From NCBI GenBank assembly GCA_001595915.1, contig LSSG01000074.1:1-32676 (forward strand): DNA of 32,676 nucleotides, read 5' to 3'. A model generated the notes under the pieces. It was not told the origin of the DNA, did no database searches, and saw nothing but the letters and a program-made list of their open reading frames with translations. A program made the position numbers and the translations under genes. Below are positions 2,317 through 23,408 of this stretch, in pieces; position 1 is the first letter of the stretch, and each line of letters begins with the position of its first letter. This DNA comes from Thermoplasmatales archaeon SG8-52-3. GTDB lineage: Archaea; Thermoplasmatota; E2; DHVEG-1.

Positions 2317-5300
2317 ATGCTAGAGGGTAAAAGGATTTTTAAAAAAATAAATAATTCTGCAGTATCTGAAGTATTAGGAACAGTTTTAATTTTAGCAATT
2401 TCTGTTGTAATTTTAACATCAGTATATATTGCTGCATTTACACTGCCCCAATCTAATAAGGCGCCGAAGATAAATGTTGTTGGTATGACTGCAAATGATG
2501 AAGATATAATACTTTCTCATCAAGGAGGGGATGATTTATCACTTGATTCAATATTAATTTTAACTATTGGCGGAAAGGAAATTAAATATAAAATTGAAGA
2601 TTTATTAGATGAAGAAGATAAAGAAGATGGATATTGGAATATTGGTGAAGAAATATTTATAAACTATGATATTAGAAATTTACTTGTTGAAGTAAAAATA
2701 ATTGACGCAGAATCTAGCTCAGTAGTTATGATGGGGCTTCTTCAGGAAGGAATGCTATTAAGAGACCCTTATACTTTTACCTTTAATGCAACAGACATTA
2801 CAGCAAATTCTGCCAAATTAATAATGAAATATAATTTTTGGGATAAATCTGGTTCAGTCAGATTTGCTTATAGAGTAACAGCTGGTGCATGGATCTATAC
2901 TTCGTGGGTAGTAAAATCAGGAGAAGATAATTATGAGTTAGTTATTAATGGACTAATTTATAATACTCAATATGAATATAAAGCAGAACTTAAATGGGGA
3001 ACTAATCAAACCGATGGTGGAGTTAAAACCTTTACTACTTTATCACCAACAGTTGACACTCTTGATGCAACAGATATAAAAACTAAAACAGCTAAACTTT
3101 GGATGCAATATGATTTCAAAGGACTTTCTGGATCAATTAGTTTTTCTTATAGACCTCAAGGTGGAAGTTGGATTAATACACCATGGGTTGCTATGTCTGG
3201 CCAAGGTACATATTCAGAGGAAATTGATGACCTAATACCAAAAAAAGATTATGAATTTAAAGCTAGAATTACCTATGATGTTGTAACAAAAGAGGGCAAC
3301 ATTAAAACATTTATTACTTGGTCAATTATAATGGGTATTTGGCATTTCTCAGAAGGAACAGGTACAATTGCTTATGACACTTCAGGACTTGATAACCATG
3401 GTACATTATTTGGACCACCCCAATGGATACCAGGTTTAAATTCAACTGGGTTAGGTTTTGATGGAATTGATGACTATTTAAGAGTGTTAGATTCAAATAG
3501 TTTAGATATTTCTGAAGAACTAACTGTAGAAGCTTGGATTAAACCTTTAGAAAAAAGTGAGGGATATATTGGAGATATAACTAATAGTTTAATTGATTCC
3601 TCATGGTTTGGTCCTAATTATGGTCGAGACTCAGACATAATTCACATATCTGGAACAATATATGCTGTTTGTTTTAGAGGAGATTATGATGATGGCTATA
3701 TTGCCACTATTTCGATAAAAAATGATGGAATTATAAAAAATGTTATTGACTACTTAGAATTTGATACCATTAATTGTTATGATCCTGATATAATTCATGT
3801 TACAAACAATATTTATGCAATTGCTTATGAAGGTCCTGATTTTGATGGATTTTTAAAAACAGTTGTAATAAATACAAACGGTCAAATAAATGATGCAGTA
3901 ATTGATACTTTAGAATTTGATACCATTAATGGACTAGATCCAAATATTATACAAGTGAATGGAAATAATTTTGCTATTGCATATTGTGGTTTGAATAATG
4001 ATGGTTATGTTACATCTATTGAAATCTTAGATACAGGTATGATTACTGATACGATTATCGATACAACAATCTTCTTTAATACCGAATCAGGAAGTTCAAT
4101 AGCCGAACCTAAGTTTATTCACGTTGGAAATAACTATTATGCAATAGTTCATAGAAACCCTGATGATGATGGTGAGGTTCGAACAATTATAATTTTAGCA
4201 GACGGAACCTTTACTAGCGCACTACATAGTGATGGATCTTATACAGATAAATTTGTATTTGACGGTTACGATGGTTGGGATCCTGATATTGTTCATATAA
4301 ATGGAAACATATATGCAACATCTTACAGAGGAAGAGATGGAAGAGGTGCATTGACGACAATTAATATTGATGCTAATGGAGTAATTCAAAAAGATATAAT
4401 TGATAAATTCTATTTCGATCCAAACAGTTGTTATGAAACAAGAATAGTGTATTTAACTGGTAATTATTATGTAATAGTTTATAGAGGACTTGATAATGAT
4501 GGTTTTATAATAGTTGTAGAAATTGCATTGGATGGTCAAATAACTGATTCTGTAATTTATTCAAATGAATTTGATACAAGTGATTGTTATAAACCAATAA
4601 TATCTCATTACACAGGAGATATATTTATAATTGCTTATACCAATTATAATGAAGGTTATATAAAAACAGTTAACATCACTTCAACACCTACTGTTTCAGA
4701 AATACAAGTTTCACGATATACTATTTTTGATTTTATTGACCCAGATATTATCAAAGTAAATAATGATATATATGCAATTGTTAGTCAAGATCTTGATGCA
4801 GATGGATACCTCCGAACATTACAAATTTTAGATGATGGAGATATTTCAAATTTATTTATTGATATTTTAGAATATGATTTAATAAATGGCCGAGATAACA
4901 AAATAATTAATGTATATGGAAATATTTTTGCAATAGTATATCGCGGACTTTATGATGATGGTTATGTTAAAACAGTTGAAATATTGAATGATGGAGATAT
5001 CAAAGACGATGCAGTTATTGATAGCCTTGAGTTTGATACTTCGAATTGTTTTGAACCAGACATTATTCATGTATATGGTAATATTTTTGCTATTGTTTAT
5101 CGAGGTACAAACAATCATGGTTTTATTAAAACAATAGAGATACTAAATTCTGGTCAAATTACTGATACATTAAAAGATTCACTTGAGTTTGAAACTAGTT
5201 ATTGTTATGAACCAGAGATTATACAAATATCAGGAAATGTTTATGCAATTGCTTATCGAGGTTATGATTATGATGGATTTTTAAAAACTGTTGTTATAAT

Positions 5301-6138
5301 GGATAATGGGGACATTGTAGATACGGTTGTTGACTCTTATGAATATGATACATCAAATGGTTATGAACCTGAGATTATTAATATTTATAATAATGTATAT
5401 GCAATTTTAAATTCATATCAATATGCAGGGGGATACATTTCAACTCTTGAGATAGCAAATGATGGAACAATTACTAAAAGCATCATAGATCGCTATAGAT
5501 TTGATACAAATAATCCAAGTGGCGATGATGACGCCTATGATCCGCAGATTATTCATATTGACGACTGGATTTATGCAGTAGTTTATCGTGGCGAATATAA
5601 TGCCTATATAAAAACTCTTAAAATTGGAAATTATGGTGACATTTCAGATGCAAATGATGACTATTTATTGTTTGACTCAAATGGCTATGTACCACAAATA
5701 ATACATTTAGATGGAAATATTTATGCTATAGCTTACACTGGAGTAAATTCAAATGCAGAAATTAAAACAGTCGAAATAATTCCAATAAACGCAACATGGC
5801 CAAGGCCAGTTGTTTATAAAACAAGTGCATATGGTCTTCAATCAGATGGAATATCAGTTTTTGCATACATAAATAATAATATTATAACAGCACCACTCTC
5901 ATCAGATTTTAACTATGTTGTATTAACATTTAATAGCTCTTTAAGTTCATATCAGATGAAATTATATATCGATAGTATTCTACAAGATGAAATTAATGTT
6001 TCTGGTTTAATAAGCATCAATAGTAATAATCTCATAATGGGAGATGATTACAATTGTATAATTGATGAAGTAACAATTTGGAATGTTGCATTATCAGAAG
6101 CGCAAATATTGGATAATTATAATTTATTCTCACCCTAA
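2317..6138 (+). CDS. Giant type IV pilin-like protein with split LamG and 14 propeller repeats
   Basis: 1273 aa. Residues 1-45 are an archaeal type IV pilin start: a basic segment, a class III signal peptide (KINNS|AVSEVLG, cleaved by a PibD/FlaK-type peptidase) and one hydrophobic helix that packs in a pilus core. Residues 50-145 form a beta domain shared with the gene at 7131. Residues 150-240 and 245-335 are two FN3-like modules. Residues 338-410 are the first half of a LamG/concanavalin-like fold (GIWHFSEGTGT, DTSGLDNHGTL, GFDGIDDYLRV, LTVEAWIKP). Residues 425-1163 are 14 repeats of about 53 aa, and 1164-1273 supply the other LamG half (FNYVVLTFNSS, MKLYIDS, IIDEVTIWNVALS). LamG domains often bind sugars. 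Probable role: a surface adhesin, tip pilin or minor pilin; this is inferred. Same-strand neighbours 6171 and 7131 are also pilin-like. Confidence 0.85.
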   Translation: MLEGKRIFKKINNSAVSEVLGTVLILAISVVILTSVYIAAFTLPQSNKAPKINVVGMTANDEDIILSHQGGDDLSLDSILILTIGGKEIKYKIEDLLDEEDKEDGYWNIGEEIFINYDIRNLLVEVKIIDAESSSVVMMGLLQEGMLLRDPYTFTFNATDITANSAKLIMKYNFWDKSGSVRFAYRVTAGAWIYTSWVVKSGEDNYELVINGLIYNTQYEYKAELKWGTNQTDGGVKTFTTLSPTVDTLDATDIKTKTAKLWMQYDFKGLSGSISFSYRPQGGSWINTPWVAMSGQGTYSEEIDDLIPKKDYEFKARITYDVVTKEGNIKTFITWSIIMGIWHFSEGTGTIAYDTSGLDNHGTLFGPPQWIPGLNSTGLGFDGIDDYLRVLDSNSLDISEELTVEAWIKPLEKSEGYIGDITNSLIDSSWFGPNYGRDSDIIHISGTIYAVCFRGDYDDGYIATISIKNDGIIKNVIDYLEFDTINCYDPDIIHVTNNIYAIAYEGPDFDGFLKTVVINTNGQINDAVIDTLEFDTINGLDPNIIQVNGNNFAIAYCGLNNDGYVTSIEILDTGMITDTIIDTTIFFNTESGSSIAEPKFIHVGNNYYAIVHRNPDDDGEVRTIIILADGTFTSALHSDGSYTDKFVFDGYDGWDPDIVHINGNIYATSYRGRDGRGALTTINIDANGVIQKDIIDKFYFDPNSCYETRIVYLTGNYYVIVYRGLDNDGFIIVVEIALDGQITDSVIYSNEFDTSDCYKPIISHYTGDIFIIAYTNYNEGYIKTVNITSTPTVSEIQVSRYTIFDFIDPDIIKVNNDIYAIVSQDLDADGYLRTLQILDDGDISNLFIDILEYDLINGRDNKIINVYGNIFAIVYRGLYDDGYVKTVEILNDGDIKDDAVIDSLEFDTSNCFEPDIIHVYGNIFAIVYRGTNNHGFIKTIEILNSGQITDTLKDSLEFETSYCYEPEIIQISGNVYAIAYRGYDYDGFLKTVVIMDNGDIVDTVVDSYEYDTSNGYEPEIINIYNNVYAILNSYQYAGGYISTLEIANDGTITKSIIDRYRFDTNNPSGDDDAYDPQIIHIDDWIYAVVYRGEYNAYIKTLKIGNYGDISDANDDYLLFDSNGYVPQIIHLDGNIYAIAYTGVNSNAEIKTVEIIPINATWPRPVVYKTSAYGLQSDGISVFAYINNNIITAPLSSDFNYVVLTFNSSLSSYQMKLYIDSILQDEINVSGLISINSNNLIMGDDYNCIIDEVTIWNVALSEAQILDNYNLFSP
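3589..5805 (+). repeat. 14 tandem beta-propeller-like repeats inside the LamG fold
   Basis: Fourteen protein repeats of 50-58 aa can be read by eye. Each follows PDIIHVxGNIYAIVYRG - xxDDGYIKTVEI - xxDGxITDxVID - xLEFDT, i.e. four short beta strands as in a propeller blade. Fourteen equals two seven-bladed propellers, the commonest size, so a double propeller is a reasonable model. The later blades (9-11) are the most alike, suggesting recent duplication; blades 3, 4, 7 and 14 have diverged most. The DNA is not a perfect tandem repeat. Confidence 0.8.
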
Positions 6139-6170: not shown

Positions 6171-7058
6171 ATGAAGAAAGGAAGAATCAAAAAAATCTTT
6201 AGAATATCAGATAATAACGAAGGAGCTGCCGGAATAATTGTTGCAGTGATGCTAATAGGACTTTTTTTTACCTTTTTATCTGTAATTCAATTAACATATA
6301 TACCTGATTGGTCAGAAGAAAGAGAAGCTGAACATATGGAAAAAGTTGCGGAGCAGTTCACACAATTAAAATTTGCAGTAGACGTCTTATCAAGTATTGA
6401 GCAAATTGGTAATAAAATTACAACAGCCGTAACATTAGGAACAAATGAAATTCCTTTACCACTATTTCTAAAATCAGAAAAATCATTTGGTTATCTTAAA
6501 TTGATATCAGATGAATGTATGATTAATATCACTGATAAAACTCCATCATCTTATAATTATATCCTAGGAAGTATTAGATATTCACCAAGAAATTCAAGAT
6601 ATATCGAAACAGATTATATATATGAAGCAGGTGGTATTATTACTAGTCAGAAATTAGGTAATACAATGTATATCATGCCTTATTTTTCTGTTGACTATTC
6701 AGGAAATGTTGTTATAACTTATGAAACGATAGATTTTATTGATATCGCAGGTAAAAAATATACCACAGGTCATGGTATTAGCCAGATACAGCTTGAATAT
6801 AAAAGTAAAAATACTGATACAATAAATAATGTTGATGATCTCATAATTTCAACACATTATATGGGAGCATGGCATAATTTCTTTAATGACACTCTTGGAT
6901 CCGCGGGTCTTACATATGGTGCAGCAAATGATTTTGAAATTATTGAAAATGAAATTGATAACGAAATTACAATAGATTTCAACGATGCGCTAACAGTTGA
7001 TCTAACCTTAATTATTACTGAAATTAATATCCAAATAGGTCCAGGATGGAGTAATTAA
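6171..7058 (+). CDS. Pilin-like membrane-anchored surface protein
   Basis: 295 aa with GGTGGACAG just before the ATG, 32 bases after the giant pilin gene. A basic N-terminus (MKKGRIKKIFRISDNNEG) precedes one hydrophobic helix (AAGIIVAVMLIGLFFTFLSVIQL, about 20-42), then a short helix EEREAEHMEKVAEQFTQLKFAVD and a beta-rich extracellular domain with repeated I/T/N-rich strands to the end. This layout (class III-like start, helix, heptad-type segment, beta sandwich) is typical of archaeal pilin-like proteins encoded next to pilins, which I know from other euryarchaea. I infer a minor pilin or assembly partner in the same operon; no enzyme motif is seen. Confidence 0.65.
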   Translation: MKKGRIKKIFRISDNNEGAAGIIVAVMLIGLFFTFLSVIQLTYIPDWSEEREAEHMEKVAEQFTQLKFAVDVLSSIEQIGNKITTAVTLGTNEIPLPLFLKSEKSFGYLKLISDECMINITDKTPSSYNYILGSIRYSPRNSRYIETDYIYEAGGIITSQKLGNTMYIMPYFSVDYSGNVVITYETIDFIDIAGKKYTTGHGISQIQLEYKSKNTDTINNVDDLIISTHYMGAWHNFFNDTLGSAGLTYGAANDFEIIENEIDNEITIDFNDALTVDLTLIITEINIQIGPGWSN

Positions 7059-7130: not shown

Positions 7131-8738
7131 ATGTATAAAAATAATATAAATACTAGAAAAAATAATGCAGTTTCAGAGATAATTTCGCTACTTCTTCTAA
7201 TAACAATTACTATAGTGGTATTTGTTGGATTACATCAAATTATTGTAAGTGACTCTGGACCTGAAGCTCAGCAAACAGTAATATTATCAGGTAAATTAGT
7301 AGGTGACACATATATTGTTGAACATTGTAGGGGTCCATCCCTAGATTTAAATACTAAATGTATTGTAGAAATAGGAGGATTTTCTTATAATTATTATATA
7401 AAAAATCTTCTCAACTCAAAATCAAAAGAGGATAATTTATGGAGTATAGGGGAAAGACTTGTTTGTAAACTTGAAAATATAACATATTTAAAAGTATCCT
7501 TTTCAATAGTAGATACTGAAAATAACTTAGTTTTATTTGATCAAACGATTCAAGATGGGTTGATTAGTGAATATCCATATATTGTATTAACATTGAATCC
7601 TACTGAGATTGAAGGTGGCTCAACAAAATTATGGCTAGGCTACAATTTCAGAAATTATTCAGGATCAGTAAGATTTTCTTATAAAAAATTAGGAGAAAGT
7701 TGGGTAAATACTCCTTGGGAATCTAAAACAGGAGAAGGATTATATAACAAGACTATTAGTAGTTTATTAGATGAAATATATATCTATCGAGCAGAGCTTA
7801 GCTGTGAATCAAATATATTAAATGGTGAAGAAATTCCAATACTACAAGATGAGATTACATCAGTTGATAAAATATCTCCTTATCAAATTTTATCATCACC
7901 TATAACTATCAATGTTACAGGAAATTCACAATTAGATGGTGTTAAATTATATTATAGATGGAGTGATGATAATACAAGTTGGGGATCTGAATCAGAATCC
8001 ACAAGTTGGTCAGCTGAACTACTAACAAATCCTAGCTTTGAAACTGGCGATACAACTGGATGGTTAAATGCTGGAGGAGGTACTATGACAGTTGGCACAG
8101 ATTGTCCGTGGGGTATAGAATCCCCCTATGAAGGCACATACTATTCATATTGGTTAGCTGCTGGAGAAAAAGTAAATGCTTATGCATATCAGAATGTAAG
8201 TTTAGCTAGCTATGCAAGTTATATTGATTTAGGAAAAGCAAAAATAAATGTTACAGGCTGGCTTGTTTCAGACGAATACCATATTCCAGTATATGATGAG
8301 TTCTTTATGCATGTAAATTTTTATGATGCTTCCAATGCATTAATGAGTGGTTATAGTTATCAATCAGGTGGAACTAATCCTGTATCACAGGGAACCGGGA
8401 ATAACGTTAATAATTGGGCTCAATATGGTATAACAAACTATACAATACCAACCGGAGCTAGAAAAGTACAAGTTAAATATTATGCATGGGAATATATCGA
8501 CGGATCAAGTTGGTGGGATGCTGGTTCAGCAGATAACTTTTCTATAAAAGTAGGGGTTATTAACAGTATTGGAAATGATAACTGGAATATTTTTGGAACA
8601 GATTACAATAGTCCATGGACCTGGAATTTTAATTTCCCATTTAATGAAGGTTATTACCAATTTTACAGTATTGGAATCTATAGTAATACTTCGGAAATAA
8701 AACCCTCAAATCCTGATACAATATGTCAAAAACAATAA
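7131..8738 (+). CDS. Type IV pilin-like protein with FN3 and inserted jelly-roll domain
   Basis: 535 aa. Residues 1-38 are a pilin start (NN|AVSEIISLLLLITITIVVF), close to that of the gene at 2317. Residues 45-145 repeat its beta domain (IVEHCRGPSLDL..., WSIGERL) and 150-235 its FN3-like module (SGSVRFSYKKLGESWVNTPW), so the two genes are paralogues. From 250 an Ig-like domain begins (ISPYQILSSPITINVTG, VKLYYRWSDDNTSWG) but is interrupted at about 290 by a jelly-roll resembling carbohydrate-binding modules (LLTNPSFETGDTTGW to WDAGSADNFSIKV, about 297-473). It resumes at about 484 (WNIFGTDYNSPWTWNFNFP, YYQFYSIGIY). Cysteines are few. Probable surface adhesin or pilus subunit; the ligand is unknown. 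Confidence 0.8.
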   Translation: MYKNNINTRKNNAVSEIISLLLLITITIVVFVGLHQIIVSDSGPEAQQTVILSGKLVGDTYIVEHCRGPSLDLNTKCIVEIGGFSYNYYIKNLLNSKSKEDNLWSIGERLVCKLENITYLKVSFSIVDTENNLVLFDQTIQDGLISEYPYIVLTLNPTEIEGGSTKLWLGYNFRNYSGSVRFSYKKLGESWVNTPWESKTGEGLYNKTISSLLDEIYIYRAELSCESNILNGEEIPILQDEITSVDKISPYQILSSPITINVTGNSQLDGVKLYYRWSDDNTSWGSESESTSWSAELLTNPSFETGDTTGWLNAGGGTMTVGTDCPWGIESPYEGTYYSYWLAAGEKVNAYAYQNVSLASYASYIDLGKAKINVTGWLVSDEYHIPVYDEFFMHVNFYDASNALMSGYSYQSGGTNPVSQGTGNNVNNWAQYGITNYTIPTGARKVQVKYYAWEYIDGSSWWDAGSADNFSIKVGVINSIGNDNWNIFGTDYNSPWTWNFNFPFNEGYYQFYSIGIYSNTSEIKPSNPDTICQKQ

Positions 8739-12419: not shown

Positions 12420-14849
12420 TTATATTCCAAAGTTTAAGATTTTTAGGAGTCTTTCAATCATTGGAAAACGTTCTAAAATCCAAATGTACCACAATTTATT
12501 TGTTCCTCTAGACCTTGGTATAGTAATTTCTAACTCAGACCAATCACTCTCGTTACCATGAATATCTTTTGCTTTAGCTTTTATTAAATAAATTCCTTGT
12601 TCATACCAAGTATGATTTGCAATTACTTCTTCACCAGAAGCATATGGACCATTAATAGTTACTTCACCAGAACTGTCACCCCAGTTAATAATATACTCTG
12701 AAATATCATCTCCATCTGTATCAACAGAAGTAAAACCATATTCATATAAAATTCCTGCATTTCCAATTGATGGACCATTAATTATTGGATCTTCAGGTGG
12801 GTAATTTTCAATAATAATTTCAATTGGGTCCGACCAGTTACTAACAGCACCATGTATATCCTTTGCTTTTGCTTTTATGTAATAAACTCCTGGCCCAATC
12901 CAATCATGATCGATTATAACCTCTTGTCCAGAAGGATAATAGTCTGTTTGAGTAATAGTTCCATCTCCCCAATCAATAAAATACATAACAAAATCTTCTT
13001 CAGGGTCAATTGTATAAATAATTAAAGAATTGTTTTCATCAATATTTATTGTTGGAGTATAAGGTGCAGAATTTCCAGTATCATTGCATTCTAAAATTGA
13101 AGCATTAAAAGCATCAATACCAGCTTCAACAACCGACCCAGCATCAAGATCTGAAGCTTCAAAACGTACTTTTACTATATCAGTTGGCGTAACAAAATCA
13201 CTAATTAAAAATTTGTATTCCTTCCACCCGTAGGGACTTGGTGTTGCAGGACCAATCTCCTCAACCAAAACCCAATCTGTGCCGTCATTATTTGAAACAA
13301 AAACATTAAATAAATCATTGTTTGGGTCATTTCCAAAATCATTTGTATACCATAATGCGTATTTAATGAAACCATCTTGTCCCTCACTTAAATCAATTGA
13401 AGGAGATATTAACCAAGTATATCCATCATCAACATCGCAATTTTCATTATAGGGATCATTGTCGGTAAGATAGCAATTACCTGATCCATCATAATCATTG
13501 GGCGGATCACCCCTATTCCAATCTACAGGAACCCCACGTTCCCATTCACCATCAGAACAATCGTTTTCAACAGTCCATCCAAGATCGTTTTCAAAATCAT
13601 CAAAAAATATAGATGTTAGTTCTCCAACAAGCGAAGAATAAACACTGTTAGGTGCATCATATGGACTATAAATTGTTCCTGATTCTTCACCTTCAGCACT
13701 GAAATAGAATTCAGGTTTATCACCGCAATTTGCAGGTGGTAATGTAGCCTCATAAAGATCTCCACTAATAAATTCTAAAGATGAATTTTGATAGGACCCT
13801 CCATCGAATCTATAATATATTTCTCCTGAACCTGGAACATATGTATCGGCAATCTCTTCGATTTGAACAAGAATACTTGTGGATTGTCCCGGAGGTATTG
13901 TATCTGGTACACCTTCAGGGAGATTTATTCTTATAGAATCTCTATATTTTATGCGAACTGTTCTATAGCCCACATTACAAACTCCATATTCAATTCTCAT
14001 ATAACCATCCTCACCCCAATTCGGCCCCCATGAATTACGAAGGAACCATACGCCTTCCGTTCCTTGATTATCATCCCAACCAACTAGAGCAACAGCATGA
14101 TTAATACTATCACACGTAGGTCCAGTAAAGATACCTCCATTATATTCTGAAAATGCTGTGTTCACACAAACAGCAACTGACACTACTCCATAATCTAGAA
14201 TTGCCTGTTTTATTTCATCAACTTCTGCTACACCATTTGGATCGCCTACATAAGCCCAATCTTCTATAAAATATTCATGCGGATATGGGCAATTACATGG
14301 TGCATTATATGCTACATAAGGAAAATCTTCTTCTAATACAGCACCAGAATCTCCACATGGATCTGTTTTTCCATTTTCCATGAAATAATCATGGCACCAC
14401 CAACCGCCACCGCAACCATATCCATCTTGATTACAACTTACAAGCCATTGTTCAGATAAATCCACTTCAACTCCATCCTTAATTTTAATATTACACTCCA
14501 ATGATGCAATTGTTCCAAATGCCCAACAACTACCACAACTACCCTGATTTTTTATTGATGGTAAACCACCTTCAATTTCATCTCGCCAGTCAAAAGAATC
14601 TGGTAAATCACCTCTTGGGATACAGGGATCAAATTTTGCATTTATATACCAGTCTTCGGGTTCAACTAAACCGCACAATTCATCTATTTTATATTCTTCA
14701 GCAAGATTTTTTTCAGGACTTTTAGACAAGATATTACTTTCCATTAAGTTATAATCTGTTTCTTCGCAATCACACGCACTTACGCTTGTTATAACAAATA
14801 AAAAAACTGTTATAAAAACAAATATTTTTTCCATTGAGACTGTTTTCAT
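12420..14849 (-). CDS. Secreted papain-family (C1A) cysteine protease with PKD domains
   Basis: 809 aa; GGAGGTT lies 8 bases before ATG. Residues 1-25 are a Sec signal peptide, then a short propeptide. The C1A domain (about 83-300) has the full catalytic set: Gln102 and Cys108 in NQGSCGSCWAF, His251 in NHAVALVGW, Asn272 in RNSWGPNWGEDGY, so it should be active. Residues 305-400 are a beta domain; 412-585 a MAM/jelly-roll-like domain (FFDDFENDLGWTVEN ... WLISPSIDLS ... FNVFVSNNDGTDW). Residues 597-680 and 685-778 are two PKD modules (YFIDWGDGT, INWGDSSG). The end, NKLWYIWILERFPMIERLLK, matches the tail of the protein at 1-350. Role: degradation of external protein, probably held at the surface. 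Monocistronic by appearance. Confidence 0.93.
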   Translation of the reverse strand: MKTVSMEKIFVFITVFLFVITSVSACDCEETDYNLMESNILSKSPEKNLAEEYKIDELCGLVEPEDWYINAKFDPCIPRGDLPDSFDWRDEIEGGLPSIKNQGSCGSCWAFGTIASLECNIKIKDGVEVDLSEQWLVSCNQDGYGCGGGWWCHDYFMENGKTDPCGDSGAVLEEDFPYVAYNAPCNCPYPHEYFIEDWAYVGDPNGVAEVDEIKQAILDYGVVSVAVCVNTAFSEYNGGIFTGPTCDSINHAVALVGWDDNQGTEGVWFLRNSWGPNWGEDGYMRIEYGVCNVGYRTVRIKYRDSIRINLPEGVPDTIPPGQSTSILVQIEEIADTYVPGSGEIYYRFDGGSYQNSSLEFISGDLYEATLPPANCGDKPEFYFSAEGEESGTIYSPYDAPNSVYSSLVGELTSIFFDDFENDLGWTVENDCSDGEWERGVPVDWNRGDPPNDYDGSGNCYLTDNDPYNENCDVDDGYTWLISPSIDLSEGQDGFIKYALWYTNDFGNDPNNDLFNVFVSNNDGTDWVLVEEIGPATPSPYGWKEYKFLISDFVTPTDIVKVRFEASDLDAGSVVEAGIDAFNASILECNDTGNSAPYTPTINIDENNSLIIYTIDPEEDFVMYFIDWGDGTITQTDYYPSGQEVIIDHDWIGPGVYYIKAKAKDIHGAVSNWSDPIEIIIENYPPEDPIINGPSIGNAGILYEYGFTSVDTDGDDISEYIINWGDSSGEVTINGPYASGEEVIANHTWYEQGIYLIKAKAKDIHGNESDWSELEITIPRSRGTNKLWYIWILERFPMIERLLKILNFGI

Positions 14850-15006: not shown

Positions 15007-15669
15007 CTACATATTCCATTGTAATTCCATTATATTATCAATAAAAGTATAAGGAGTTCTAAAACTAATTACACCAACATGTCCAATCTCAGGAACAACC
15101 CTGCCCCATACATCAGTATTTTCAGAGATATTGTTAAATGAGGCAGTTAAATTTACACACAAAAATAGTTTATCACCTCGATTAATTACAGGATTTGCTT
15201 GAGAGATCGAATTATCAAAATCTTCTAAAACAAGTATTCCAAATTGTGAAGCTAAATCGGGAAAAACATTTGCATTAAAAATATTACTTAATCCATCTGG
15301 ATTTGAATAATAACTAGTTGTATAATTAAAGATAATTTTTTTATTAGTATCTGATAACTCAATAAAACTAGTTGATATGTCAATTTCTTCAGTTCCTGCT
15401 AAGGGTCTAATCATAATAGCCAACTTTGAAATATCTTCACCAGTTGCAGCATAGCCCTCTACACTAAAAACAGATATCCCAGCAGAAACTTCAGTTTGAG
15501 TCTTACTACCAGTTGAAAAAGCTTGTGATTCAAGTGTAGAACTTGTTTGAATTAATACTGATCCAGCGATACCTGCAATCAATACCATAGCAATAAAAAC
15601 GATTAACCCACCTATACCTATCGATGCTGAATTTTTAAACTTAATAAATTTACACAAGTATTTTAGCAT
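15007..15669 (-). CDS. Archaellin (archaeal flagellin)
   Basis: 220 aa. The N-terminus is diagnostic: a basic leader MLKYLCKFIKFKNS, a class III cleavage site (S|ASIGIGG) and the conserved helix LIVFIAMVLIAGIAGSVLIQTSSTLESQA that forms the archaellum core. The remaining beta-rich domain carries several N-x-S/T sequons typical of N-glycosylated archaellins. Length matches the family. No other archaellum genes (arlCDEFGHIJ) are in the window, so this is either a detached filament gene or a related pilin. Upstream AGGAG and a TTAAATAC TATA-like box (about 15700-15708 on this strand) fit a divergent promoter with queE. Confidence 0.88.
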   Translation of the reverse strand: MLKYLCKFIKFKNSASIGIGGLIVFIAMVLIAGIAGSVLIQTSSTLESQAFSTGSKTQTEVSAGISVFSVEGYAATGEDISKLAIMIRPLAGTEEIDISTSFIELSDTNKKIIFNYTTSYYSNPDGLSNIFNANVFPDLASQFGILVLEDFDNSISQANPVINRGDKLFLCVNLTASFNNISENTDVWGRVVPEIGHVGVISFRTPYTFIDNIMELQWNM

Positions 15670-20697: not shown

Positions 20698-20934
20698 ATG
20701 AAAAGTGCTAGATTTGTTTTTAATTTTGATTCGGAAAAAGAAGCAAAAATTATTGCTGAAACACTAAATCCTGAGATAAAACATAAAATACCAAAAACAG
20801 ATATAAAAATATCACTTGAAGGAAGTAAATTTACTCTTGAAATCAGTACAAAAGACATAAGTTCTTTAAGAGCTGCATGTAACTCTTATCTTCGTTGGAT
20901 AAATACTGCACTGAAAGTTAAAAAAACAGTTTAA
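20698..20934 (+). CDS. pcc1: KEOPS complex subunit Pcc1
   Basis: 78 aa, 9 bases after rpoP. Pcc1 is the small dimerisation and tRNA-binding subunit of KEOPS, which makes t6A37 in tRNAs with Kae1, Bud32 and Cgi121. The sequence has the family layout: strand SARFVFNF, helix SEKEAKIIAETLNPE, strands IKISLEGSKFTLEIS and final helix ISSLRAACNSYLRWINTALKV. Conserved end gene of the superoperon in many archaea; the prefoldin subunit often following is absent. Its stop overlaps the purA stop on the other strand by 4 bases. Confidence 0.9.
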   Translation: MKSARFVFNFDSEKEAKIIAETLNPEIKHKIPKTDIKISLEGSKFTLEISTKDISSLRAACNSYLRWINTALKVKKTV

Positions 20935-23408
20935 ACCTCTATTGTTTCACTTCTTCCAGGTCCAATTGAAACAAGGGCAAATGGTATTTTAAGTTCTTTT
21001 TCAATAAAATTAAGATATTCACGAACTTCTTTTGGTAAATCTGAAATTTTTTTAGAAGACCCATCAATTTTTTCCCAGCCATTAAATTCCTTATAAACTG
21101 GTTTACATTTTTTTACATCTTCGATATTTGCTGGAAAATAATCTATTTCCTTTCCATTTAGTCTGTATTTTATACAAATTTTAACTTTTTCAAGTCCATC
21201 TAAAACATCAAGTTTCATTATTGCAATCTTACTTATACCAGAAATAAGACAAGAGTGCTTTACAACAACCAAATCAAGCCAACCACATCTTCTTGGTCTG
21301 CTGGTCGTTGTTCCAAACTCGTGTCCCTTTTCTTGTAAATGTTTACCATCTTTATCAAAAAGTTCTGTTGGTAGAGGTCCCTCCCCAACCCTAGTTGTAT
21401 ATGCTTTCATAATACCAATTATTTCATTAATATGATGTGGCCCAATTCCTGTTCCAATCAATGAGCCACCAGATATGGTATGCGAAGAAGTAGTATATGG
21501 ATAGGTGCCAAAATCCACATCAAGCATTGTTCCTTGGGCGCCCTCAAATAAAATATTTTTACCTGATTTTATCGCTTTATTTAGTTCTATGTGTGTTGGT
21601 ATTATGAATTCTTTTAAACGTTTTCCAAAACTTATGTAATTATCCAATATTTCTTGTTTATCAAGTTTATCTTCAATTTTATATACATCAAATATTTTTT
21701 GCTTTAATGGTAGTATTTCATCTAATTTATCACTAAGTGTTTTTCTATCAGTAAGATCAATTGCACGTATACCTTTTCTAGCTATTTTATCACTATAACA
21801 AGGTCCAATACCTCTTTTTGTTGTACCAATTTTTTTACTGCCAAGTTTTTGTTCTTCAGCGCCGTCAAGAATCTTATGATAAGGCATAATAATATTTGCT
21901 CTATCACTGATTAAAAGTTTAGGGCTAATTCCACGTTTAGATAATTCTTCAATTTCCTTAATCAATGTCTCAGGGTCAAGAGCTACTCCATTTCCAATTA
22001 TCCCAATCTTTCCCTGAATTACACCAGATGGAGTTAAATGAAGTTTGTATACCTCGTCCCCTACTTTAATTGTATGTCCTGCATTACTATTGTGTAGTAA
22101 AATCGGACTAGGCCCTCCAAAAAATGCTTCATTATCACAACCACAAAGATCATAGACATAACCAGAATATGTTTCCTTAGTTATTTTTAAAATTCTTCGA
22201 AGATAAAAACAATTTTTTCTTTTAGGATTTCGTTTTAAAAAAGGATTACTAGATTCACCAATTTTAATAGTATATACTTTTGTACTATGTAAAATATGAC
22301 CTTGAAGGGCTTTTCCTTTTTTTGTAATTTTTTGCATTAAAGTACATTTTATACCATGAATATTTAATAACCAATTCAATTGGATAGCTAATTGTTTTGA
22401 GACTGTACTAACCTCAATTTGACCACTTTTATGAATGTGACCATCACCTGCAATATAGGACTCAAAAAAATTTATAAATTGACTTTTTGATAATTTAAAA
22501 AAGAAATCTGGTAATTTTTTCTCTCTTGCTCCTTTACCAAATAAATCCTTAAATAAAATTGCTAGATACTTTTTAGAATATCTTATGCAAGTCTCAGTTT
22601 TTTCATTAGGAGGTGAAAAAATATTTGTATTTTCTTCCCCAAATATTGATTCCATAGCATTCTTAACAAAATCTATTATTTCTTTTTCTTTTGAGTTAAA
22701 CGAAAAAGTTAAATCATAATCTGTTGAGGAGGATTTTCTATATTTCTCTTTTCTTTGTCTTTTTCTGATACCAACATTTCCTTCAGCAATATAATATCCA
22801 AAAAGTTTTAGTAAAACATCAGATAATTTTAAAATCTGTAACTTTCCATTTTTCTTAAATTGTAATTCTATGTTTTCATTTGAATAAAAATCAGAAACAA
22901 ATACATCTCCTTTATTGTGGAATCTTAAAATATTTTTATGAGGAATACTAATTAAGATATCACCAACTTTAAGATCAGATGTTTTTTTACAATAAGGTCT
23001 CCCGATATTTTTATTATATAAAAAAATAGAATGATCTGCTGTTAGAGATAGTGTTCCACCATTATATTTAACATTAAAAATATGTTCTACTTTATGTCTA
23101 TAAACTGCTGAAATATTAGCAATTGAAAAGTTAGTTATCCCTGGATTTTTTGAAAATTTTGCACCAAGTGTTGAAGTTTTATTTATTTTTTTAATACCAT
23201 CTTCATCATCTTTATAGAATTGATCAACAAAATCCTTTATGTTAACAATATTAGATTTTGAACCATTTTTAATAAATATTGGAGTATCTCCTGTAACACT
23301 ACCTCCTTGAAATCGAACAACATATTCAGCATCTCTTGAATAAAAATCAACAACCTTACCTTTCCCTTCATCTCCCCATTGGGTACCTAATACAAGATTA
23401 ACTGTCAT
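20931..23408 (-). CDS. purA: Adenylosuccinate synthetase PurA with in-frame intein
   Basis: 825 aa precursor; the mature enzyme after splicing would be 421 aa. PurA joins IMP and aspartate with GTP to give adenylosuccinate on the AMP pathway. Extein motifs: GTQWGDEGKGKVVDF (8-22, GTP/IMP site), RFQGG|SNAGHT (interrupted by the intein after residue 36; NAGHT holds the catalytic His), DRANIIMPYHKILDG, IGTTKRGIGPCYSDKIARKGIRA, EGAQGTMLDVDFGTYPYTTSSH, TRVGEGPLPTELFD and GRPRRCGWLDLV-type STRPRRCGWLDLVVVKH. All are intact, so the enzyme should work only after splicing. Near-leaderless start is likely; no ribosome-binding site seen. Confidence 0.96.
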   Translation of the reverse strand: MTVNLVLGTQWGDEGKGKVVDFYSRDAEYVVRFQGGSVTGDTPIFIKNGSKSNIVNIKDFVDQFYKDDEDGIKKINKTSTLGAKFSKNPGITNFSIANISAVYRHKVEHIFNVKYNGGTLSLTADHSIFLYNKNIGRPYCKKTSDLKVGDILISIPHKNILRFHNKGDVFVSDFYSNENIELQFKKNGKLQILKLSDVLLKLFGYYIAEGNVGIRKRQRKEKYRKSSSTDYDLTFSFNSKEKEIIDFVKNAMESIFGEENTNIFSPPNEKTETCIRYSKKYLAILFKDLFGKGAREKKLPDFFFKLSKSQFINFFESYIAGDGHIHKSGQIEVSTVSKQLAIQLNWLLNIHGIKCTLMQKITKKGKALQGHILHSTKVYTIKIGESSNPFLKRNPKRKNCFYLRRILKITKETYSGYVYDLCGCDNEAFFGGPSPILLHNSNAGHTIKVGDEVYKLHLTPSGVIQGKIGIIGNGVALDPETLIKEIEELSKRGISPKLLISDRANIIMPYHKILDGAEEQKLGSKKIGTTKRGIGPCYSDKIARKGIRAIDLTDRKTLSDKLDEILPLKQKIFDVYKIEDKLDKQEILDNYISFGKRLKEFIIPTHIELNKAIKSGKNILFEGAQGTMLDVDFGTYPYTTSSHTISGGSLIGTGIGPHHINEIIGIMKAYTTRVGEGPLPTELFDKDGKHLQEKGHEFGTTTSRPRRCGWLDLVVVKHSCLISGISKIAIMKLDVLDGLEKVKICIKYRLNGKEIDYFPANIEDVKKCKPVYKEFNGWEKIDGSSKKISDLPKEVREYLNFIEKELKIPFALVSIGPGRSETIEV
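22089..23300 (-). mobile_element. Intein with LAGLIDADG homing endonuclease in PurA
   Basis: 404 aa inserted between Gly36 and Ser441 of the precursor. It begins with Ser (block A, SVTGDTPIF), has block B LTADHSIFL (Thr and His), and ends with block F VYDLCGCDNEAFFGG and block G ILLHN, followed by extein Ser. Both endonuclease motifs are visible: LFGYYIAEGNV (block C) and FFESYIAGDGHI (block E), each with its acidic residue. Splicing residues are complete (Ser1, penultimate His, terminal Asn, Ser+1), so it should splice, and the homing endonuclease looks intact. Composition is as AT-rich as the host gene. Confidence 0.95.

Follow-up and report, generated by a model that had tools for sequence, protein, structure and literature searches.

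The gene at positions 2317-6138 of the window (the whole stretch of DNA analysed, 32,676 nucleotides of contig LSSG01000074.1 from Thermoplasmatales archaeon SG8-52-3) encodes a protein that is best explained, with a probability of roughly 0.6, as a modular type IV pilin with an adhesin head, most likely incorporated as a minor or tip subunit. The protein is probably a pilus-borne adhesin because the same design, always with 7, 14 or 21 propeller blades, is found again next to pilus-assembly genes in related archaea. Modular pilins account for the way in which pili acquire functions, and the survey that describes them concerns bacteria (PMC8179133); lectin or propeller domains are not mentioned in the archaeal pilus paper PMC4858521. 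With the present family, archaea gain a clear modular-pilin counterpart with an operon context and testable gene sets.

Domain architecture of the pilin

Table 1. Coordinates of the propeller-pilin gene, its parts and its two neighbours in the window
Feature	Residues	Position	Strand	Basis
Modular pilin gene, 1273 aa		2317..6138	+	Uninterrupted ORF; orthologues L008 4984-8805, L009 4684-8829
Pilin moiety	12-146	2350..2754	+	Family HMM
Pilin_N, archaeal type IV pilin N-terminus	14-83	2356..2565	+	Pfam
FN3-like module 1	153-243	2773..3045	+	Family HMM, PDB profile search
FN3-like module 2	246-334	3052..3318	+	Family HMM, PDB profile search
LamG, first half	338-411	3328..3549	+	Laminin_G_3 profile, alignment, uninterrupted-LamG model
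Putative propeller 1, repeats 1-7	412-790	3550..4686	+	Alignment to stand-alone seven-repeat propellers L122-L124
Predicted propeller 2, repeats 8-14	793-1160	4693..5796	+	AlphaFold2, Foldseek
LamG, second half	1162-1273	5800..6135	+	Laminin_G_3 profile, alignment, uninterrupted-LamG model
DUF7289-like companion, N-terminal hydrophobic helix		6171..7058	+	Conserved adjacency to propeller pilins in other genera
Second modular pilin, pilin moiety and one FN3-like module		7131..8738	+	Family HMM, Pfam, orthologues

The product runs from a Pilin_N start through two FN3 modules and the N-terminal half of a LamG domain to 14 repeats and the C-terminal half of LamG (Table 1). This is the order that the initial annotation had read from the letters, and profile searches reproduce it, including its class III pilin start (Pilin_N, E 9.8e-12, also 4e-13; Pfam) and, by the similarity described below, its two FN3-like modules; the insertion that it placed within LamG is also present, at about 750 residues (412-1161) rather than the 739 first given. 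Two orthologues (L008 and L009 in Table 1), with 75-76% identity, have the identical domain layout, one of them in a single-contig chromosome, so the nested arrangement is not an assembly artefact; the genomes compared include MAGs.

Sequence features that mark a modular type IV pilin are found in this protein. At the N-terminus there is a class III-type signal followed by a pilin helix (...NNSA|VSEVLGTVLILAISVVIL), for which, by analogy, prepilin cleavage is assumed after Ala15, and additional functional domains (LamG, propellers and FN3) are grafted behind the pilin moiety. Pfam searches with the sequences of the single FN3 modules (153-243 and 246-334) gave no significant FN3 match; a profile of 12 modules of the family, compared with the PDB, matched designed FN3 consensus proteins (FN3con entry 9ot8, E 4.2e-6).

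A LamG domain interrupted at one site

Against the Pfam profile Laminin_G_3 (PF13385, cut-off 27.6 bits), the N-terminal half scores 14.8 bits and the C-terminal half 30.7. The initial annotation had proposed a profile search with the two halves joined, and the score then rises to 47.8 bits over profile positions 1-150 of 151 in one stretch; a single full match arises only upon joining 338-411 to 1162-1273. With a model made from 35 uninterrupted LamG domains, the joined halves reach 107.0 bits (model positions 1-193) and the separate halves 67.7 and 39.1, compared with a best score of 80.8 among 400 half-shuffled controls, a test that is not fully independent because the 35 sequences were gathered with the family model. 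Judged by profile, the two segments remain LamG, yet interrupted: in place of the contiguous Laminin_G_3 domain, the insert sits at one fixed site.

Alignment places the insertion point at the identical position in eight split members, and five uninterrupted LamG domains run through it continuously. The break falls between a strand of the form T-x-E-A-W-I-K-P and a strand of the form (I/V)-x-x-K-x-x-x-Y, represented here by TVEAWIKP and VVYK. One of these five (L117) belongs to a pilin-FN3-LamG protein that has no propeller. The packing of the two halves into one domain is argued from sequence evidence, because the structural model of the head (338-1273, from three sequences) was poor (pLDDT 54.8, pTM 0.42), with regular strands in the repeats and LamG lacking a resolved fold; adding rows of uninterrupted LamG to the head alignment misplaced about 30 residues or made the alignment collapse. 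The Foldseek matches of this model, mostly tandem-propeller proteins, are not relied on because their TM-scores are low.

Fourteen repeats and two propellers

The insert contains 14 repeats of about 52 amino acids at a spacing of 49-58 residues, starting near residues 439, 490, 542, 598, 656, 708 and 760 (repeats 1-7) and 809, 861, 914, 966, 1018, 1076 and 1126 (repeats 8-14). That these make up two seven-bladed propellers, as first proposed, agrees with the model obtained for propeller 2 and with the alignment that is the basis for propeller 1. The AlphaFold2 model of propeller 2 (793-1162, nine-row alignment; pLDDT 88.1, pTM 0.89) is a closed seven-bladed ring of 28 strands, seven blades of four, in which a D strand comes first and strands A-B-C last, the usual manner of ring closure. 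Its best PDB matches by Foldseek are the Photorhabdus PLL/PHL lectins (TM-score normalised to the target up to 0.79), and glycoside hydrolase propellers such as BT3686 are also among the matches. For propeller 1, the seven-bladed ring is supported by stand-alone seven-repeat proteins from viral contigs, which align with exactly this stretch over the whole length of the propeller; its first strand is designated D0, and its final blade has no D strand of its own. An FG-type motif is common to strands D0 and D7, most of the other D strands having FD; the difference is clearest in other genera, and this motif marks the start of each propeller. Similarity between repeats at an offset of seven, as expected from a clean block duplication, gave a weak signal. 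A weak sequence match to ricin B (E 0.41) was judged to be due to chance.

Blade counts and distribution of relatives

Among 39 split-LamG proteins in the loci examined, insert lengths fall into three groups that do not overlap: 374-452 residues (7 blades), 745-856 (14) and 1089 (21), the last class being a single protein. Automated counting returned 7, 14 or 21 blades in 33 of the 39 proteins and 6, 8 or 13 in the other six, which we read as counting errors because their insert lengths lie within the 7- or 14-blade group. For the evolution of nested domains the family provides a natural series: the host domain has received one, two or three complete propellers at a single site, and relatives with an empty site serve for comparison.

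The repeats were found in 25 of the 45 genomes searched in the family to which the window belongs, representing 11 of its 23 genera, and in none of the genomes searched from other families of the class; the nested form occurs in two further families across the wider phylum. A search for the same order in other Thermoplasmata, suggested at the outset, thus recovered the nested propeller-LamG arrangement in related genera. The 7-blade split LamG of L106, from another family of the phylum, lies in a non-pilin protein, and pilins with seven blades that lack LamG are also present (L113-L116; L046 8520-10022). The 21-blade insert (L105 3773-9859) lies in the LamG of a NosD-type beta-helix surface protein from another Thermoplasmatota family. 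Putative viral contigs from IMG/VR (L122-L125) encode single seven-repeat propellers within large ORFs, and the propeller of L123 begins at a methionine. Relatives on viral contigs have either LamG alone or a single propeller alone, none having the nested form, and the plasmid and phage records searched gave no match.

Genomic context

About eight genera have the propeller-pilin gene next to genes for the type IV pilus ATPase and platform and to a conserved DUF7289-like partner. In g4, g5, g10, g11, g13, g20 and g23 the order is ATPase, platform, platform, propeller pilin(s) and DUF7289-like gene. In a second operon type the order is ATPase, fused platform, pilin, DUF7289-like gene and 7-blade pilin; some of the loci compared are incomplete. 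In L047, L048, L050, L051, L053, L054 and L055, as many as three tandem propeller pilins (7, 14 and 14 blades) come immediately after the platform genes.

The locus in the window has no ATPase or platform gene adjacent to 2317-6138, whose only neighbours are the DUF7289-like partner and the second modular pilin. The same genome has the second operon type on another contig (C65), where a propeller-pilin paralogue, cut by the contig end, comes immediately after genes for an ATPase, a platform protein, a small pilin and a DUF7289-like protein. An ATPase, a platform protein and a prepilin peptidase, as a modular type IV pilin needs, are therefore all encoded in this genome: there are four T2SSE ATPases, a PibD-type peptidase (Arc_PepC_II) and the platform gene beside the paralogue.

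Gene neighbourhoods indicate that the DUF7289-like protein is the constant partner of the propeller pilins. Its homologues (window 6171-7058, L041, L045, L047 and L120) share 36-38% identity across genera and have a pilin-like N-terminal helix. The second modular pilin (535 aa) corresponds to L008 9807-11882 (691 aa) and L009 9815-12814 (999 aa); the pilin moiety and first FN3 module are conserved among the three, the C-terminal part is very variable, and the L008 form carries DUF2341 and an uninterrupted LamG.

Comparison with known systems

Bacterial modular pilins with PF13385 have been described (PMC8179133), and PilC of Streptococcus sanguinis is a modular minor pilin whose ConA-like lectin module binds glycans (PMC9934059); bulky modules on a pilin make PilB and PilC of this species tip adhesins (PMC8179133, PMC9934059). 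The window protein resembles these in having a pilin start onto which a ConA/LamG-like binding domain is grafted and in being a proposed tip adhesin. It differs in that the lectin domain of PilC is not described as interrupted and has no propellers, and in its pilin family, which is the archaeal Pilin_N rather than IPR012902. The initial annotation knew of no described family with this order; the nested pilin-LamG-propeller order itself was indeed absent from the literature searched (open-licence papers), but ConA/LamG-like lectin pilins are known in bacteria (PMC8179133, PMC9934059), and the new part is therefore the nested insertion of propellers, seven blades at a time.

Other likenesses extend to parts of the protein. 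PilY1/PilC are, like it, large pilus-associated adhesins or candidates, and PilY1 employs a beta-propeller but is not a pilin; DUF2341 proteins have been proposed as the archaeal counterparts of these pilus-tip adhesins (PMC4858521). Membership in the PilY1 group was rejected, the window protein having a pilin start and no Pfam match to a PilY1-type propeller or to DUF2341. The closest solved fold is that of the seven-bladed, fucose-binding Photorhabdus PLL/PHL propellers (TM mostly 0.66-0.79 over about 365 columns), in which the binding sites lie between blades (PMC6943638). Unlike in these lectins, however, the Trp-based sugar sites are not conserved, identity is about 10%, the two propellers contain 2 and 1 Trp (3 in 14 blades), and the repeats gave no match to PLL lectins at the sequence level; membership in the PLL family was rejected in spite of the shared fold. 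The nesting of one domain in another has precedents in prolyl oligopeptidase, in which a propeller lies inside an alpha/beta hydrolase, and in Vibrio cholerae sialidase, in which a lectin domain lies inside a propeller. In the window protein the host is LamG, and in the family one, two or three whole propellers are inserted.

Proposed function and alternative explanations

In other genera the gene is linked to those for the pilus ATPase and platform, which lends support to the earlier suggestion of a ligand-binding adhesin displayed on a pilus, in which ligand binding is the inferred part. To judge from sequence, the PibD-type prepilin peptidase would cleave the pilin signal, the ATPase and platform would pack the helix into a filament, and the FN3 modules would form a short stem. 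The LamG loop TVEAWIKP/VVYK would then carry two complete seven-bladed propellers, one of them predicted by structure modelling. Each propeller would be self-closing because the strand ahead of its first repeat fills the gap in the final blade; the two ends of the propeller would then lie side by side, so that it could be spliced into a loop with LamG left unbroken. LamG and the faces of the propellers may bind an extracellular ligand, most likely a glycan on the surface of a cell, virus or particle, and several binding sites would provide avidity. Both the LamG domain and the fold match to PLL hint at a glycan, though the Trp-based sites of PLL are absent. The head may have grown at a single fixed site by whole propellers, first from 7 to 14 blades and then to 21. 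For the window protein, assembly into filaments, a place at the tip and the ligand are proposals, the reading as a minor or tip pilin with a ligand-binding head being drawn by analogy with PilB and PilC of S. sanguinis.

The propeller pilin might instead be the chief component of a short fibre or coat on the cell surface, its head serving for spacing or packing and not for ligand binding. Propeller pilins are the sole pilins between the platform and DUF7289-like genes in the ATPase-platform-platform operons of several genera, often as three tandem copies (7, 14 and 14 blades), but a head of 1100 residues would clash in a helical pilus, the modular pilins of S. sanguinis having been modelled only at the tip owing to such a clash (PMC8179133, PMC9934059), and the second operon type also includes a small pilin. 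A purely structural role is therefore unlikely; nevertheless, two-propeller operons without a small pilin exist in several genera, so the protein could exceed a minor-subunit role. We consider it quite improbable that the protein is a membrane-anchored surface receptor with a retained pilin-like helix that is never assembled, for example a sensor acting with the DUF7289-like protein. Such a receptor would fit the conservation of this companion alongside it across genera and a window locus without assembly genes, but not the linkage to ATPase and platform genes seen in about seven other genera as well as for the paralogue in its own genome.

Still more doubtful is an enzymatic head, a glycosidase or lyase displayed on the pilus that would use LamG to bind carbohydrate. 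Enzymes acting on carbohydrates are often accompanied by LamG, and the fold matches include glycoside hydrolase propellers such as BT3686; against this, the repeats have no match to Pfam enzyme families, the blades share one generic motif in which no blade-specific catalytic residues were recognised, and 7, 14 or 21 near-equivalent blades suit binding better than a single active site. For the preferred reading, that of a pilus-borne adhesin, chances seem about even that the family constitutes an undescribed archaeal class in which a lectin-type LamG would act as a fixed socket for whole propellers, reach or valency would be stepped through 7, 14 and 21 blades and through tandem copies, and the cassette would have been exchanged between pilins and surface proteins that are not pilins.

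Other features of the window

Elsewhere in the window, an intein interrupts the adenylosuccinate synthetase gene (20931-23408, minus strand). A papain-like C1 peptidase gene (12420-14849, minus strand), whose product has a choice-of-anchor J match and sub-threshold PKD-like matches, adjoins an archaellin gene (15007-15669).
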